A stretch of DNA of 27,444 bases from a virus. The position numbers and the translations under genes were made by a program. The notes beneath the pieces are model-generated. The model saw nothing but the letters and a program-made list of their open reading frames with translations, did not search any database and had not been told where the DNA came from. Below are positions 7,700 to 27,074 of this stretch, piece after piece. The stretch lies in IMG/VR virus record IMGVR_UViG_3300025314_000082, positions 1 through 27,444 of that record, one strand, 5' to 3'. Each line of letters starts with the position of its first letter. Position 1 is the stretch's first letter.

Positions 7700-8590
7700 A
7701 TGGCAGGAGGTACGAATTATAGGCCCTTCGCACCCGAGGTTTGGTCGAGTTATGTAAAAGTGTACTTCAAGGAGAGATTGACAGCAGCTCAATTCTTCAT
7801 GAACTTTTCAGATGAGCTGAAAGGTGGCGGAGACACAATTACATTGCCGTCCCTTACCACAGGGCCAGCAGTAGGGTCTTTCACGACAACCACTGGAGCA
7901 ATTTCTGACTTCGTTGTTGTAGAGACAAGAACTACCCTAACGATCAATAACTGGAAGTATTCTTCAAAGAAATTTTCAGACTTTGAATGGGGTAGGATTG
8001 CTTCTAAGTACAACCTTCAGAATATGTATCTTCGGGAGGATATTGCCTACCGGTTGGCAGAAAACTTGGATGCTACGATTCTTACTGATTTGAGAAACAT
8101 GAACTTTAGGACTGGAACATCGTTAGTTTCGATGAACAATACTACTGTTCAGGAAGCAGTGAGAATCTCGCATTCAGGAAGTATGCCGCAACCGGATATG
8201 GCATTCTTCATCCATCCGAACGTATTCTTTGGGCAACTGTTGAGAAGGAATCAATACTACGATGCGAGTATCTTCGGAAAAGCAGTAATCTCCGATGGAT
8301 TCTCCCCTGTAGCAAATCTGTATGGATACCCAGTGTATCTATCCCTCAATGTGCCAACAGGTAGCGGTATTGGAGGTGATGGATATCCATCGACCGCCAA
8401 GATTAACGCATTGGTTCATAAGAGAGCCATTGTGTATGCTATCGGAAACATTGACGGTATGGGTGTAGGCCCACGGCTTGCTACGATGCCAGTCGCAGAT
8501 GCAAAGGCGTTCCGAGTAATCGGAGACCTAGCGTATGGTATTTCAGACTTGGACAAGAATGCAGGAGTGAAGATGGTAACTGTACAATAA
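7700..8590 (+). CDS. Major capsid protein, probable HK97 fold
   Basis: A 296-residue protein directly after the scaffold gene. The order of segments (N-terminal APEVWSSYVKVYFKERLTAAQF, then GGGDTITLPSL, a long helix around LAENLDATILTDLRN, the phrase PDMAFFIHPNVFFGQLL, then a glycine-rich GYPVYLSLNV segment) fits the HK97-type capsid layout of N-arm, E-loop, P-domain spine helix and A-domain. No long N-terminal delta domain is present, consistent with a separate scaffold gene. Followed by a strong inverted-repeat element instead of a closely spaced gene, which may set high, separate expression of the capsid gene. Confidence 0.87.
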   Translation: MAGGTNYRPFAPEVWSSYVKVYFKERLTAAQFFMNFSDELKGGGDTITLPSLTTGPAVGSFTTTTGAISDFVVVETRTTLTINNWKYSSKKFSDFEWGRIASKYNLQNMYLREDIAYRLAENLDATILTDLRNMNFRTGTSLVSMNNTTVQEAVRISHSGSMPQPDMAFFIHPNVFFGQLLRRNQYYDASIFGKAVISDGFSPVANLYGYPVYLSLNVPTGSGIGGDGYPSTAKINALVHKRAIVYAIGNIDGMGVGPRLATMPVADAKAFRVIGDLAYGISDLDKNAGVKMVTVQ

Positions 8591-8602
8591 GAAGTAACGG
8601 TG

Positions 8603-8660
8603 CTGGACGACTTGGCTCTTGTAGTCATTCTGCTTGAGCCAAGTCCAGAATGACGTCCAG
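8603..8660 (+). promoter_or_regulatory. Interleaved inverted-repeat element after the capsid gene
   Basis: Three perfect complementary pairs are interleaved: A 8603-8609 with 8654-8660 (7 bp), B 8609-8618 with 8636-8645 (10 bp) and C 8624-8632 with 8646-8654 (9 bp). The order A-B-C-B'-C'-A' is that of an H-type pseudoknot closed by an outer stem. The gap between B' and C' is 0-1 nt, too short to span a full 10-bp helix, so B and C are more likely alternative hairpins, or form a partial knot. A T-poor tail (TTCTTAAAAATTT) follows, so ordinary intrinsic termination is not certain. It could terminate or process the capsid message, or be a footprint of the adjacent HNH gene. Confidence 0.75.
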
Positions 8661-8676
8661 TTCTTAAAAATTTAAT

Positions 8677-9027
8677 ATGGTAACGAATACGAAAGAGTAT
8701 TATCGCCGTTGGGAGAAGAATAATCCAGATAAAGTTAAAGCTAAAAGGAAAAGATATATAGAAAAGCATAAAGAAAGATTGTATGCCTATAATCGTAAAC
8801 TTCAGAAGAAACAAAGTGTTGAAAGAAAGATAAAAAAGGCAAAACAAGAATGTTCGATTTGTGGATTTAATAGATATTTAGAAAGTTGTCATATGGTTCC
8901 AAAATGCAAGGGTGGAAAAGAATGTATGTGGCTTTGCCCTAATCATCATAAGCTATATGATAATCAACTATTATATCAAGGAGAGAAAGAGATGCTTGAA
9001 GAGAAATTGTTGAAAATAAAAGTTTAG
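8677..9027 (+). CDS. Free-standing HNH endonuclease
   Basis: A 116-residue protein. Residues 1-55 are very basic and rich in K, R and Y, a probable DNA-binding part. The nuclease core shows C59-x2-C62, H72 in a CHMVPK motif, and LCPNHH with C87, H90 and H91, matching a beta-beta-alpha metal fold with structural zinc. Such genes in phages are often mobile homing endonucleases; packaging-linked HNH proteins also exist but usually sit beside terS/terL. Here it lies between capsid and glycan genes, directly after an inverted-repeat element. Codon usage is more A-rich than its neighbours, in keeping with recent arrival. Confidence 0.87.
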   Translation: MVTNTKEYYRRWEKNNPDKVKAKRKRYIEKHKERLYAYNRKLQKKQSVERKIKKAKQECSICGFNRYLESCHMVPKCKGGKECMWLCPNHHKLYDNQLLYQGEKEMLEEKLLKIKV

Positions 9028-21518: not shown

Positions 21519-21779
21519 ATGCCCGACCCCATCTTAGAAATTCTTAAATACGCCACGCCCTCCGCAGTCGTTTTGCTGTTTTTATGGAAAATAATGGTTC
21601 CTTGGTCTGACTACTGGCTTAATGCAAAAGGTGCGGGTAAGTTGGAAAAGAGAGTAAATAATATAGAGAATAATGACCTGCACTCTTTTCACGAGTTCAA
21701 ACAAGAGATGAGAGAACGAGTGGGAAAATTGGAAACAGATGTTGCGTTCATAAAAGGACGGCTAAACGGACATACATAG
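21519..21779 (+). CDS. One-TM coiled protein, holin- or spanin-like
   Basis: An 86-residue protein from ATG 21519; an in-frame TTG at 21510 would add three residues. A single hydrophobic segment lies at about residues 13-27 (PSAVVLLFLWKIMVP), followed by a charged coiled region ending KLETDVAFIKGRLNGH, which resembles small phage membrane proteins of the XhlA type. It may take part in lysis or membrane anchoring. It diverges from the exported protein and ends shortly before a structured G+C-richer segment. The holin at 24545 is a better holin candidate, so this is likely an accessory protein. Confidence 0.7.
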   Translation: MPDPILEILKYATPSAVVLLFLWKIMVPWSDYWLNAKGAGKLEKRVNNIENNDLHSFHEFKQEMRERVGKLETDVAFIKGRLNGHT

Positions 21780-21830
21780 CCCTTTCCCGTCCGCTCTATG
21801 CGGGGCGGAAATTCAGCGTTCTTTCAATGT

Positions 21831-21918
21831 TTTCGGCTGATGGGGATTAGCTGAAAGGGGGAAGACGCTGGTGCAGTCCGTCCACTCGCCAGTAGTACTG
21901 CTGGACTGGTGGGCGGGC
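21831..21918 (+). promoter_or_regulatory. Inverted repeats upstream of the zinc-ribbon genes
   Basis: TTTCGGCT (21831-21838) can pair with AGCTGAAA (21849-21856), with one G-U. Next, an imperfect 16-bp palindrome at 21889-21904 (CCAG-T-AGTACT-G-CTGG) lies between CAGTCC and GGACTG arms. The segment has no gene and precedes a perfect Shine-Dalgarno sequence at 21937-21944. It could be a structured 5' leader or an operator; no T-tract for intrinsic termination is visible. Confidence 0.4.
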
Positions 21919-21948
21919 GGGAGAAGGTTAGCACATAAAGGAGGTAAG

Positions 21949-23898: not shown

Positions 23899-24543
23899 AT
23901 GATGAAACTCTATAGGCCATTACAGTCAAATACACTAAGTCAAGGATTTGGAGAGAACAAAGTTTGTATATACCCAGATGGTCGTCTTGTCTTGAATTTT
24001 GGAAAAACTTGCCCTATCTATACAGAAAGCGTGTATAAAAAGTACGGAATGATTGCTCACAACGGACAAGATTGGGGATGCTGGTACGGAGAACCAATTT
24101 ACCATTCGGGAGAGTTTTCGGGTATAATGAAAACGGAGGTTGATAACGCGGGGGGGGTAGGAGTGGATATTATCTCCAAAGAAAAAGTGTTTATGTACAA
24201 GGGAAATCCCACTTATGTGAAACTCCGCTATTGGCACTTGAAGTCAGTGGTGGGATTTGACGGCAAGGAGATAAAGGAAGGAGATTTGATAGGATATGGC
24301 GATTCTACGGGCGTTTCTACGGGTAACCACCTCCACTGGGCTTTTAAGCCCTGCAACGCCTCTGGGGGCAACGTGGACGGCCAGAATGGATATTTTGGGG
24401 CGATTGACCAAGCCCCATATTTCGTGGATATGTTCGTGCTGGACGCCGTGCAGAAAAAGCAAGAGGTGTTTTCTACGATTGACTATGTGAGGAAGGCGTT
24501 GTTTGGCATAAAGGTCGCTTTGGATAAGTTAATGGGAAAATAA
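23899..24543 (+). CDS. M23-family peptidoglycan endopeptidase (endolysin)
   Basis: A 214-residue protein. The M23 zinc ligands appear as H54-x3-D58 in MIAHNGQDWG and H146 in GNHLHWAF (H144-L-H146). Between them, YWHLKSVV, KEIKEGDLIGYGDSTGVSTG matches the conserved strand and G-x-T-G part. These enzymes cut the peptide cross-links of peptidoglycan. No signal peptide is present, so a holin would be needed for export. A run of eight G at 24150-24157 lies within the gene. The gene is followed one base later by the holin, a normal lysis pair. A second ATG at 23902 is an equally possible start. Confidence 0.9.
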   Translation: MMKLYRPLQSNTLSQGFGENKVCIYPDGRLVLNFGKTCPIYTESVYKKYGMIAHNGQDWGCWYGEPIYHSGEFSGIMKTEVDNAGGVGVDIISKEKVFMYKGNPTYVKLRYWHLKSVVGFDGKEIKEGDLIGYGDSTGVSTGNHLHWAFKPCNASGGNVDGQNGYFGAIDQAPYFVDMFVLDAVQKKQEVFSTIDYVRKALFGIKVALDKLMGK

Positions 24544-24544
24544 A

Positions 24545-24787
24545 ATGGAAATCATAGAAACATCAACATTTCTGTACAGATCGGAAGTTGCGGGAATCGT
24601 GGTGGAAGCGGTCAAACAAATAGGCAAAATTCCTTCTTCTTTTCTTCCGCTTCTTTCCCTCGCAGTAGGAACTGGAGTGGGGCTCGTGTTTGACCTATCC
24701 CTTATCGGCGGGCTCACGGGATTTGTGGCCGGAGCTTCGGCTTCGGGGATTTACGATGTGGTGAAAAAAAGCGTGTTGCAGAAATGA
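24545..24787 (+). CDS. Holin, two membrane spans
   Basis: An 80-residue protein with two hydrophobic stretches, SSFLPLLSLAVGTGVGLVFD (about 31-50) and LIGGLTGFVAGASASGIYDV (about 53-72), and a basic end (KKSVLQK). It starts one base after the endolysin stop. This size, topology and placement fit a phage holin that opens the inner membrane for the endolysin. The stop overlaps the next gene's ATG (ATGA). Confidence 0.88.
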   Translation: MEIIETSTFLYRSEVAGIVVEAVKQIGKIPSSFLPLLSLAVGTGVGLVFDLSLIGGLTGFVAGASASGIYDVVKKSVLQK

Positions 24788-24984: not shown

Positions 24985-25096
24985 TATTGCGAAAAAGTAT
25001 AAAGTAAATAGAAAAAATGTCGGAAAATGGGTTCCGAAGTTTTTGATGGAAAGAAAAGAAAGGTCGCTGCAAATTGATACCACAAAAAAACTATGA
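24917..25096 (+). CDS. 59-residue helix-turn-helix protein
   Basis: ATG 24917 to TGA 25094-25096. The centre, TVADIAKKYKVNRKNVGKWV, is a clear helix-turn-helix of the kind found in small DNA-binding or transposase-like proteins (short helix, turn at Y-K-V, recognition helix N-R-K-N-V). Ends are basic. No dimerisation or effector domain is visible. GAAG-type ribosome site only. It begins inside the zinc-ribbon gene and its stop overlaps the next ATG (ATGA), so it is likely co-translated. Possible role: late regulator of the hairpin-rich region just downstream. Confidence 0.55.
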   Translation: MQYDYKTTEKIWKASLKGTTVADIAKKYKVNRKNVGKWVPKFLMERKERSLQIDTTKKL

Positions 25097-25173
25097 TTGA
25101 TGTACAAGGCGAACCGCAGACGCCCGACACGCCTGAGGAAGGGGTTGACGAGGAGCAAAAGGAAAGCATATAA
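25093..25173 (+). CDS. 26-residue acidic peptide
   Basis: A short frame with ATGA overlap with the HTH gene and TAATG contact with a further 15-residue frame (25173-25220). It is acidic and Pro/Thr/Glu-rich (GEPQTPDTPEEGVDEE). The overlaps favour translation; no function can be given. Very small frames like this also occur by chance. Confidence 0.35.
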   Translation: MIDVQGEPQTPDTPEEGVDEEQKESI

Positions 25174-25220
25174 TGAAAGATTGCGAGGTAAGTTACCCTT
25201 TGAGTAGCGCCCTGCCGTGA
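25173..25220 (+). CDS. 15-residue peptide MKDCEVSYPLSSALP
   Basis: ATG shares its first base with the preceding TAA (TAATG), and the frame ends at TGA 25218-25220. The fit to the neighbour is the only support. It lies at the end of the operon before the hairpin-rich segment. Function unknown. Confidence 0.25.
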   Translation: MKDCEVSYPLSSALP

Positions 25221-25242
25221 AAAAAGGTTATTCTGCCTTTGC

Positions 25243-25388
25243 GAGAGGTTCGCACAACCTCTCAAACCCGCCCTTGGATATAGGGTTGCAGGCGAGTCCC
25301 GCGACAAAACATCCCGGTGCAAGGATGGCGGGACTCGGTAATATGCAAACAGAAACAGCAAAAACCGCCCTTGTGGGGCGGTTTTTGC
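25243..25388 (+). ncRNA. Tandem hairpin segment ending in an intrinsic terminator
   Basis: Four stems follow one another. H1: GAGAGGTT 25243-25250 with AACCTCTC 25256-25263, 5-nt loop. H2 (weak): AACCC 25265-25269 with GGGTT near 25282-25286. H3: CGAGTCCCGC 25293-25302 with GCGGGACTCG 25328-25337, enclosing CATCC 25310-25314 with GGATG 25323-25327. H4: the terminator at 25358-25388. No credible gene crosses it. It may be a structured 3' tail of the lysis transcript, or a small RNA released from it. No known RNA family was recognised. Confidence 0.45.
25358..25388 (+). terminator. Strong bidirectional intrinsic terminator
   Basis: A perfect 13-bp inverted repeat (GCAAAAACCGCCC 25358-25370 with GGGCGGTTTTTGC 25376-25388) with a 5-nt loop. 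The G+C-rich core is followed by TTTTT on the + strand and, read the other way, also by TTTTT. It would end the lysis operon, and could block transcription from the other side. Confidence 0.92.
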
Positions 25389-25405
25389 ATGGGGTTAGAA
25401 AGGGG

Positions 25406-25435
25406 TTGACGAAGGGAAAGAAGCAGAGATATAAT
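25406..25435 (+). promoter_or_regulatory. Near-consensus sigma70-type promoter
   Basis: TTGACG (25406-25411, 5/6) and perfect TATAAT (25430-25435) with an 18-bp spacer, just downstream of a strong terminator. Predicted start about 25442. No convincing coding frame follows for at least 200 bp on the + strand, so its product is probably an untranslated RNA. Confidence 0.7.
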
Positions 25436-25441
25436 AAAAAT

Positions 25442-25575
25442 GCAGAGATAAAGCCTGAGTAAGGCAATAAGCTGTGGTTTCATAAGCGAGGCGCGTATTG
25501 GACACAACTTTATCAGAGTTGCTACTATTTATTAGCTCAGGTCCACGGACACGCGCCCCACTTATGGAGGCTTAG
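25442..25575 (+). ncRNA. Candidate structured non-coding RNA
   Basis: Nested perfect pairs fold one element: P1 CATAAG 25481-25486/CTTATG 25561-25566; P2 GGCGCGT 25490-25496/ACGCGCC 25551-25557; P3 TGGAC 25499-25503/GTCCA 25541-25545; P4 CAACT 25505-25509/AGTTG 25517-25521 with a 7-nt loop. A 19-nt strand (25522-25540) stays free inside; its CTCAG (25536-25540) can pair with CTGAG (25455-25459) in a pseudoknot. AAGCCT 25451-25456 can also pair with AGGCTT 25568-25573, closing the whole structure. Expressed from the promoter at 25406-25435. No known RNA family was recognised. Confidence 0.5.
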
Positions 25576-25595
25576 TGAGTGGGAACGCGGTTTTA

Positions 25596-25635
25596 CTTAC
25601 CAAAACCCCTTGCGGTCAGACAAGGGGGTGGTAAG
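25596..25635 (-). terminator. Terminator for the minus-strand basic protein gene
   Basis: CTTACC 25596-25601 with GGTAAG 25630-25635 encloses CCCCTTG 25606-25612 with CAAGGGG 25621-25627 (8-nt loop). Read on the minus strand, the 7-bp stem is followed by TTTT, a short intrinsic terminator 10 bp past the stop of the gene ending at 25645. It also lies at the end of the convergent RNA transcript. Confidence 0.6.
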
Positions 25636-25644
25636 ATGGAGTTG

Positions 25645-25974
25645 CTACGCTTCCTTCGGGGGCGTGGCTTTTGCTTCTACGGATTTATTGTAGGCATTCA
25701 ACGCCCATTGCTTCGCTCGTTGCCTTCTCGCAAACCCTACTCGCTTCACAATTTTGTATCCTCCGAGCTTTCCCATCGATTTGATGTAGCGGTAGATGCC
25801 CGCCACATATCGAGAACCACTTTTGTGTTTTATTTTCTCGGTAGTCCAAAAGTACCTGTCTTTGGTGGTACGATTCGAGAAGTACCGATAGGATGCCTGT
25901 GTTCGTGCAAGCATATTCCGCAAGTAGGGATCCTCGGCAATGGCTTTGTTGATTATATCAATTGGATTAATCAT
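25645..25974 (-). CDS. Basic minus-strand protein, function unknown
   Basis: A 109-residue protein, strongly basic and rich in K, R and Y, without cysteine. The first 25 residues are helical (INPIDIINKAIAEDPYLRNML); the C-terminal half (GGYKIVKRVGFARRQRAKQWALNAYNK) resembles short basic ends of phage proteins of unknown role. It has its own extended -10 promoter and terminator, so it is controlled separately from the + strand operons. DNA or RNA binding is plausible from charge only. The + strand frame opposite it (25579-26331) is a shadow. Confidence 0.75.
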   Translation of the reverse strand: MINPIDIINKAIAEDPYLRNMLARTQASYRYFSNRTTKDRYFWTTEKIKHKSGSRYVAGIYRYIKSMGKLGGYKIVKRVGFARRQRAKQWALNAYNKSVEAKATPPKEA

Positions 25975-26034
25975 ATTCTTTTTTCAAAGAACGCTGACCC
26001 GTTCTGGCCGGGAGGATTTTATCTGCCTCCTATC

Positions 26035-26046
26035 CTAATTATATCA
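26035..26046 (-). promoter_or_regulatory. Extended -10 promoter for the basic protein gene
   Basis: On the minus strand TGATATAAT (TATAAT at 26038-26043 preceded by TG and one base) is a perfect extended -10. No good -35 is present at 17-18 bp. The leader of about 57 nt contains GGAGG/CCTCC (26011-26015/26026-26030) and two overlapping pairs, AGAAC/GTTCT (25988-25992/26001-26005) and CCCG/CGGG (25998-26001/26009-26012), which may affect translation. Confidence 0.55.
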
Positions 26047-26228
26047 TACGGCTTCTGGAGAACTTTCGAAAATGGGGCAGAAAACAGAATTTTTAGGCTC
26101 CTCTTGACAAGGGTACCTTGCTTTTTTAAGGCAGAAATTTTTGATCGAAAAAATAATTTAGGGCAGAGTTTGAAAAAGTTTGTGTTCAAAAAAGCCTCCG
26201 AAACAAAAACGCTTCTGATTAAAAGGTA

Positions 26229-26349
26229 TCGAAAATCTGTGGATAGCCCGTTTGCAAACGAGGTCGAGGCCCCCCTTTTTTGGTACACGATTTTTGCACA
26301 CCATAAGGAGAAAATTGCAGGGGTTGAATAAAGTCTAGCCTGTGGATAA
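26229..26349. other. Origin-like region with DnaA-box-like sites and a palindrome
   Basis: In the 429-bp gap between divergent genes lie TGTGGATAG (26238-26246, one mismatch) and TGTGGATAA (26341-26349, exact), both the complement of the DnaA box TTATCCACA. A perfect 12-bp palindrome CGTTTGCAAACG is at 26249-26260, two bases from the first box. T- and A-tracts lie to the left (26121-26200), and a CAAGG-GTA-CCTTG inverted repeat at 26108-26120 follows a TTGACA. A replisome-organizer-like gene follows. An origin or regulatory control site is likely; both rest on pattern only. Confidence 0.5.
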
Positions 26350-26366
26350 CTCTGGTTGGGAGGGGG

Positions 26367-26394
26367 TTGACACTATGTCTGGGTATGGAATAAT
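26367..26394 (+). promoter_or_regulatory. Promoter for the replication genes
   Basis: A perfect TTGACA (26367-26372), 16-bp spacer and AATAAT (26389-26394, 5/6). It lies 17 bp after the exact DnaA-box-like site, so that protein bound there could control it. Initiation near 26401 is just before the ATG at 26404, leaving out the GGAG at 26395-26398 unless starts are upstream. Confidence 0.65.
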
Positions 26395-26403
26395 GGAGAT
26401 ACT

Positions 26404-26520
26404 ATGGCGAGGATCGATGGACAATTCAATAAATTTATTGACCGAAAGGGTCTCGCAATAAACAAGGTTTTCATCGAACCTTCGCCAGTTGTGAGGCCCT
26501 TTTGGTTCGTAATGCTATGA
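26404..26520 (+). CDS. 38-residue leader gene before the replication protein
   Basis: ATG 26404 to TGA 26518-26520, overlapping the ATG of the next gene (ATGA). GGAG lies 5 nt before the start. The peptide is MARIDGQFNKFIDRKG at the start and ends in a hydrophobic PVVRPFWFVML. The fit between promoter and next gene supports real translation. It may couple translation of the replication protein or be a small regulator; no family was recognised. Confidence 0.5.
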   Translation: MARIDGQFNKFIDRKGLAINKVFIEPSPVVRPFWFVML

Positions 26521-27074
26521 CTCGTAAAAGAATGATTGACCCAAAAATCTGGGAAGACCCAGGGTTCAACAGACTATCTATACAGGCAAGATTGCTATTT
26601 ATAGGAATGTTTAGCAACGCTGACGATGACGGATATTTGAGAGGAGACGAAGGAAGTCTTAAGAGATTGATATTTGGTTTTGACGAAGTGAAGAAAGAGG
26701 ATATGGGGACGTGGATAATAGAAGTTGAAGCAATGGGAAGCGTACATTTTTTTGAAGAAAACAACGAAAAGTACGTCCATTTAATAAACTGGGAAAAATA
26801 CCAGAAGCAACAAAAAGACAGAAGAATACCATCTACATATCCTTTGTGTAGCAAATGCTTAGCACTTGCTGACGCAAGTAAGTTAAGTAAAGTTAAGTTA
26901 AGTAAAGTTAAGTTAAGAGAAGATAAGAAGAGAAGAGATGTTTCTTCTTCTAAAAAAATGTACTATGACGGGTTAGAGGTACGGAAGGCACAAAACAAGT
27001 TATGGGTTATCCCAAAAGATGGGGGTAAATGGTTAGAGTTCGCGGGAAATGAAAAAGATATAAGAATAGAGTAA
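26517..27074 (+). CDS. Replisome-organizer-like replication protein
   Basis: A 185-residue protein from ATG 26517, which overlaps the leader stop. The N-terminal 95 residues (MIDPKIWEDPGFNRLSIQARLLFIG, in phrases IDPKIWEDPGFNRLS and ARLLFIGMFSNADDDGYLRG, then VHLINWEKYQKQQ) match the winged-helix N-terminal part of phage replisome organizers that open the origin. A Lys/Ser/Leu-rich linker (SKLSKVKLSKVKLRED) is encoded by 15-bp repeats. The C-terminal part is short; no helicase-loader or DnaD-like domain is clear. It follows an origin-like region, as in many phages. A frameshift at the repeat or a shortened C-terminus remains possible. Confidence 0.75.
   Translation: MTRKRMIDPKIWEDPGFNRLSIQARLLFIGMFSNADDDGYLRGDEGSLKRLIFGFDEVKKEDMGTWIIEVEAMGSVHFFEENNEKYVHLINWEKYQKQQKDRRIPSTYPLCSKCLALADASKLSKVKLSKVKLREDKKRRDVSSSKKMYYDGLEVRKAQNKLWVIPKDGGKWLEFAGNEKDIRIE
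26880..26917. repeat. 15-bp tandem repeats inside the replication gene
   Basis: AAGTTAAGTAAAGTT is repeated exactly at 26880-26894 and 26895-26909, with an 8-bp third copy to 26917. The unit keeps the reading frame (Lys/Leu/Ser/Val). A+T-rich iterons within initiator genes are known in phages such as lambda, where the origin lies in gene O; an equivalent role here is inference. Confidence 0.85.

Follow-up and report, generated by a model that had tools for sequence, protein, structure and literature searches.

The 27,444-base virus record analysed here (the window) derives from an uncultivated bacterial virus, and the gap between its lysis genes and its replication gene, which contains no recognised genes, holds two promoter-to-terminator units. 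Judged from its sequence, the second of these units, which would produce a folded RNA that we call RNA2, is likely to be a real transcription unit. Our preferred explanation, to which we give not quite even credence, is that the two units, P1-RNA1-T1 and P2-RNA2-T2, are tandem small-RNA genes with a regulatory function exerted by base pairing; the base-pairing role itself is put forward tentatively. RNA1 and RNA2 match no described family, and comparable RNA pairs are already known in other phages. The region comprises the following features (all coordinates are those of the window):

23899-24543, endolysin-like peptidase (lysin), upstream of the RNA units
24545-24787, holin, just upstream of the RNA units
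25093-25173, acidic 26-codon ORF (MIDVQGEPQTPDTPEEGVDEEQKESI) with coding-like codon use, its end overlapping P1
25145-25174, plus strand, promoter P1 (TTGACG-18-TATAAT), upstream of RNA1
25181-25390, plus strand, RNA1, a predicted structured untranslated transcript of about 210 nt, the tandem twin of RNA2
25358-25388, both strands, terminator T1 (GCAAAAACCGCCC/GGGCGGTTTTTGC), bidirectional by sequence
25406-25435, plus strand, promoter P2 (TTGACG-18-TATAAT), upstream of RNA2
25442-25672, plus strand, RNA2, a predicted structured untranslated transcript of about 230 nt
25453-25465, plus strand, 5' hairpin of RNA2 (GCCT/AGGC), whose loop CTGAG can pair with 25536-25540
25478-25569, both strands, main hairpin of RNA2, with helices of 6, 7, 5 and 5-7 bp
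25596-25635, both strands, second domain of RNA2, CTTACCA/TGGTAAG around CCCCTTG/CAAGGGG
25644-25668, plus strand, terminator T2 of RNA2, with a UUC/UUCG loop followed by TTTTGCTT
25645-25974, minus strand, convergent 109-aa ORF, its last codons inside T2
26367-26394, plus strand, promoter P3, upstream of the replication-initiation gene
26517-27074, ORF of the replication-initiation protein (family phrog_1408)

The gene order in the window leads from the terminase via the major head and tail-type proteins to the lysis genes. Two or three very small ORFs lie between the holin and the small-RNA region, and an HNH endonuclease gene is found directly downstream of the replication-initiation gene. 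The only close relatives of this phage are near-identical contigs, all of which stop before the small-RNA region.

The three promoters P1, P2 and P3 are all located on the plus strand, match at least 11 of the 12 consensus bases and fall within 1.44 kb (25101-26540). Promoters of this quality are expected 0.02 times in this interval and 1.1 times across the whole 27-kb window, and three of them within 1.44 kb were obtained in none of 300 shuffles. All three share a G-rich upstream box. Furthermore, the P1 and P2 blocks constitute a gap-free direct repeat of 43 nt, 74% identical and 261 nt apart. This repeat is not due to the hexamers alone, because 20 of the 31 positions outside them agree, a value reached by only 4 of 100,000 random window pairs. 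The initial annotation had described a near-consensus promoter right after a strong terminator, and this is borne out: P2 matches 11 of the 12 consensus bases, and the terminator just upstream of it is T1, the 3' end of the RNA1 unit.

We infer the start of RNA2 to lie about 7 nt past the -10 box and take its end from T2, whose plus-strand stem includes three G.U pairs. The RNA is thus predicted to reach about 25672 and not to end at 25640, as had been assumed in the initial annotation, which did not list T2. Within the main hairpin, all the nested stems of 6, 7, 5 and 5 bp that had been claimed are present, namely CATAAG/CTTATG, GGCGCGT/ACGCGCC, TGGAC/GTCCA and CAACT/AGTTG, and a 19-nt strand (25522-25540) ends in CTCAG, which is complementary to CTGAG at 25455-25459. 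On the plus strand, the fold of RNA2 has a z-score of -4.5 with the terminator and of -3.2 for the body without it (25442-25640), with none of 200 dinucleotide shuffles being as good in the first case and none of 200 shuffles in the second. Codon scores are near zero or negative in every frame of RNA2, in agreement with the earlier view that the region lacks a credible gene. A 250-aa plus-strand ORF (25579-26331) was rejected as an antisense shadow, as it scores -0.23 per codon where it overlaps the convergent ORF. The proposal of an independent phage small RNA therefore stands as regards promoter, missing coding signal, fold and terminator, but this RNA is the second of two units and, as described below, it is not isolated.

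The first unit resembles the second at its beginning. Past the -10 boxes, the initial 45 nt or so of the two RNAs align in register, as happens in about 1 of 200 shuffles, whereas the bodies of the two RNAs show no significant similarity (a fraction of 0.27 of the shuffles was as good). We think that the P1 and P2 promoters and the RNA starts were probably duplicated, and that the remainder of the two RNAs either has diverged or was never related. The z-score of RNA1 ranges from -4.4 to -4.8 with its terminator and is about -2.8 for the body alone. A frame spanning RNA1 (25217-25462) is mildly coding-like (+0.10 per codon); the 81-aa ORF over RNA1 was nevertheless rejected as a gene, as searches of Pfam, NCBIfam, phages and plasmids yielded no match for it. 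The leader of P3 has no homology to either RNA.

At its 3' end, RNA2 is not isolated from any gene, contrary to the initial annotation. Because T2 sits in the last codons of the convergent ORF, the predicted RNA contains 28 nt (25645-25672) of this minus-strand ORF, and its overlap with the convergent message is at least that long. The codon score of the ORF is slightly positive (+0.02 per codon), which lends it weak support; no relatives of it were found, and its predicted structure is of low confidence (pLDDT 57). The main hairpin has a folding energy of -31.9 kcal/mol on the plus strand versus -41.0 kcal/mol on the minus strand. On the latter it forms an uninterrupted 18-bp helix including three G.U pairs, because each of the plus-strand interruptions (25487/25560, 25489/25558 and 25497/25550) is an A.C mismatch. 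In view of this more stable minus-strand fold, the constraint possibly acts on the convergent transcript, and the selected structure may belong to that transcript; the plus-strand case for RNA2 rests on P2 and T2.

Taken to its conclusion, this would mean that selection maintains the 3' part of the 109-aa gene's transcript, through the main hairpin to T1, and that RNA2 is antisense or incidental. We regard this as unlikely, albeit deserving of serious attention. It would account for the three A.C interruptions of the main helix that become G.U pairs on the minus strand, for the z-score of -6.1 on the minus strand versus -3.2 on the plus strand over 25442-25640 (199 nt), and for the z-score of -7.3 of the minus-strand stretch from the end of the convergent ORF to T1. 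However, no good minus-strand promoter lies nearby, and P2 and T2 indicate that the plus strand is used. Moreover, the core of the second domain followed by TTTT (minus strand, 25627-25606) resembles a terminator for the convergent ORF, and this hairpin may end the transcript before the main hairpin.

An explanation in terms of ordinary punctuation appears to us just as unlikely. Here, the promoter/terminator pairs, together with convergent terminators, would serve as insulation for late operon, convergent gene and origin, and the transcripts would be folded but functionless. A sister contig (L003), which is 99.99% identical to the window and reaches 2.1 kb further left, is of relevance in this context. 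At L003:1286-1393 it has a perfect promoter (TTGACA-18-TATAAT), a leader of about 75 nt with a hairpin, and an intrinsic terminator, followed by a small terminase ORF (L003 1416-1796, named by eye). By its sequence, this unit is late-promoter-like and arranged in the manner of a late promoter under antitermination control. Such an arrangement of promoter, leader and terminator before the small terminase, as in an antitermination-controlled late operon, speaks for the punctuation explanation, as do the several hairpins that read as terminators and a z-score of just -2.8 for the RNA1 body. On the other hand, the main hairpin of RNA2 is no terminator, and two near-consensus promoters driving RNAs that terminate ahead of any gene on their own strand would be a costly form of insulation.

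The statement in the initial annotation that no known family could be recognised agrees with our searches. Rfam yielded no match on either strand at gathering scores and chance-level matches only at a relaxed threshold (E up to 5), and a search for tRNAs and tmRNAs found none. A blastn search of 50,697 phage and 72,556 plasmid records found no relative of the RNA, its only match being a terminator-like stretch of 35 bases in a Salmonella plasmid. Likewise, searches of viral contigs via the lysin, the convergent ORF, the terminase (as single sequence and as profile) and the replication protein revealed no relative of the RNA, but returned the same phage as well as fragments that encode terminases of 23-49% identity and lack the small-RNA region. 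Three scans with exact patterns of RNA2 and RNA1 returned 4, 0 and 1 matches: in the four RNA2 matches the RNA does not continue past the pattern, and the single RNA1 match is L047. A covariance model of RNA2 had no match in 19 related records and, in 16 sources including the window, matched the window alone. In bacterial genomes, the terminase profile gave one remote match, and no host was assigned. Separately, the terminal 77 nt of a 38-kb viral contig (L040:4978-5054; IMGVR_UViG_3300009285_001483) are identical to 26794-26870 of the window; joined to unrelated sequence, they probably represent a chimeric assembly end.

Several known phage RNAs are nonetheless similar in their layout. Lambdoid phages possess pairs of small RNAs in the interval that separates their lysis genes from the late promoter, for example AsxR/EcOnc27 and AgvB/EcOnc06, and some of these lysis-proximal RNAs are sponges or antisense pairs, with one dyad including an antisense pair (PMC7873438). 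As in these dyads, the two RNAs predicted here would lie side by side near lysis genes; they have no sequence relation to the lambdoid RNAs. Unlike in the lambdoid dyads, the RNA1 and RNA2 units point in the same direction and both have a promoter and a terminator of their own, and we infer their order relative to the late promoter, as the genome is not closed. The 6S RNA of phage lambda is about 200 nt long. This leader of the lambda PR' promoter, together with StxS, which derives from it, is similar in combining a strong host-type promoter, an untranslated RNA and an intrinsic terminator; that it is made without phage activators is counted as a further likeness (PMC7873438). Unlike the PR' leader, neither RNA1 nor RNA2 immediately precedes the late operon, a place that is taken by the unit at L003:1286-1393. 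Lambda OOP is likewise a short RNA delimited by a promoter and a terminator close to the replication region, where it runs across a gene on the opposite strand and may act as antisense to it, but it is 77 nt long and its overlap is with cII (PMC12197685), whereas RNA2 measures about 230 nt, has a strong fold and reaches no further than the 3' end of the opposing ORF. The overlap with an opposing gene that characterizes cis-antisense RNAs of the OOP type is thus also present in predicted RNA2 (28 nt). Some of the GOLLD, ROOL and OLE RNAs, too, occur in phages. These structured bacterial non-coding RNAs are far larger and conserved (PMC12286853), and the RNAs described here have no Rfam match.

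In our preferred explanation, RNA2 would be the second small-RNA gene in a gap flanked by the lysis genes on one side and the origin/replication-initiation region on the other, and the host RNA polymerase would produce the transcripts of about 210 and 230 nt independently of the late operon. Both transcripts would act as regulatory RNAs via base pairing. Within the window, the one perfect complement of RNA2 would be the 3' end of the 109-aa gene's mRNA (at least 28 nt), with a larger overlap if the convergent mRNA extended to T1; host messages would be equally possible partners. We favour this dyad of small-RNA genes because the layout is the best guide, with the RNA units placed after the lysis genes and a late-promoter-like unit in L003. 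Against it stand the lack of relatives, the better fold of the main hairpin on the minus strand, the dissimilar bodies, the mildly coding-like frame across RNA1 and the fact that no target emerged beyond chance. In this last test, which counted all phage genes, the pairing of phage messages with two accessible segments of RNA1 and RNA2 was no better than chance (91 of 200 and 33 of 200 shuffles were as good). Phage genomes from metagenomes usually receive protein annotation only, and this region indicates that promoter-driven folded RNA genes can occupy the lysis-replication gap in phages that are distant from the models. If transcription were confirmed, the known range of lysis-proximal small-RNA dyads would be broader.

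A bolder proposal is that the tandem duplicates represent a new, pseudoknotted RNA family that controls the switch between replication and lysis, and that RNA2 and the convergent transcript have mutually complementary folds reminiscent of plasmid copy-number control. We consider this improbable. The elements on which the initial annotation had based a pseudoknot and a three-way switch do exist, as 25451-25465 has three mutually competing partners, i.e. the hairpin GCCT/AGGC, CTGAG:CTCAG and AAGCC:GGCTT. Pairings of this kind are, however, often supplied by chance: a 5-bp match in the pseudoknot geometry arises in 14-15% of cases, both in shuffles and in real window sequence of the same geometry, so neither the pseudoknot nor the switch is established. 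The two RNAs do provide a lead in that the aligned 6-mers CCTGAG (RNA2) and TTTGAG (RNA1) are each exactly complemented downstream, by CTCAGG at 25536 and CTCAAA at 25261, which would amount to two compensatory pairs between RNA1 and RNA2. It is a lead only, since the probability of each complement is about 4% and the selection was post hoc, and in RNA1 the partner of TTTGAG is also claimed by a stable hairpin. With a chance of about 15% for the 5-bp match and no ribozyme or riboswitch match in Rfam, a pseudoknotted switch or ribozyme-like RNA with alternative pairings of 25451-25465 is very improbable.

Two further features are located around P3, downstream of the RNA units:

26238-26349, minus strand, origin-like stretch; DnaA boxes at 26341-26349 (perfect, TTATCCACA) and 26238-26246 (near match)
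26440-26507, plus strand, leader hairpin of 20 bp with five G.U pairs (z-score of -4.6), between P3 and the replication-initiation ORF

The stretch 26200-26360, just before P3 and the replication gene, is AT-rich and origin-like; across the whole window, the count of DnaA boxes is not above chance. In the leader, a stem GGCGAGG.TCGATG / CATCGA.CCTTCGCC (about 26406-26420 with 26473-26487) would cross the 20-bp hairpin. A leader switch controlling the replication gene (26395-26516) is conceivable, and it is perhaps a better switch candidate than RNA2.

In a fold scan of the whole window, the end of RNA1 together with its terminator (-6.4 on the plus strand and -7.1 on the minus strand) is among the strongest stretches, as are the leader of the replication gene (-5.8) and the 3' part of RNA2 (-4.4). 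Two other plus-strand stretches, 21761-21920 (z-score of -5.9) and 8561-8720 (-5.1), also fold strongly. Finally, positions 1-160 fold unusually well on both strands and contain at least five copies of a repeated GTTATAAC motif; these copies fall within the terminal part of a small ORF starting MTKIKAKLRRIGNSYGVILPKDVI, which is AbrB-like by eye and located just upstream of the terminase genes.
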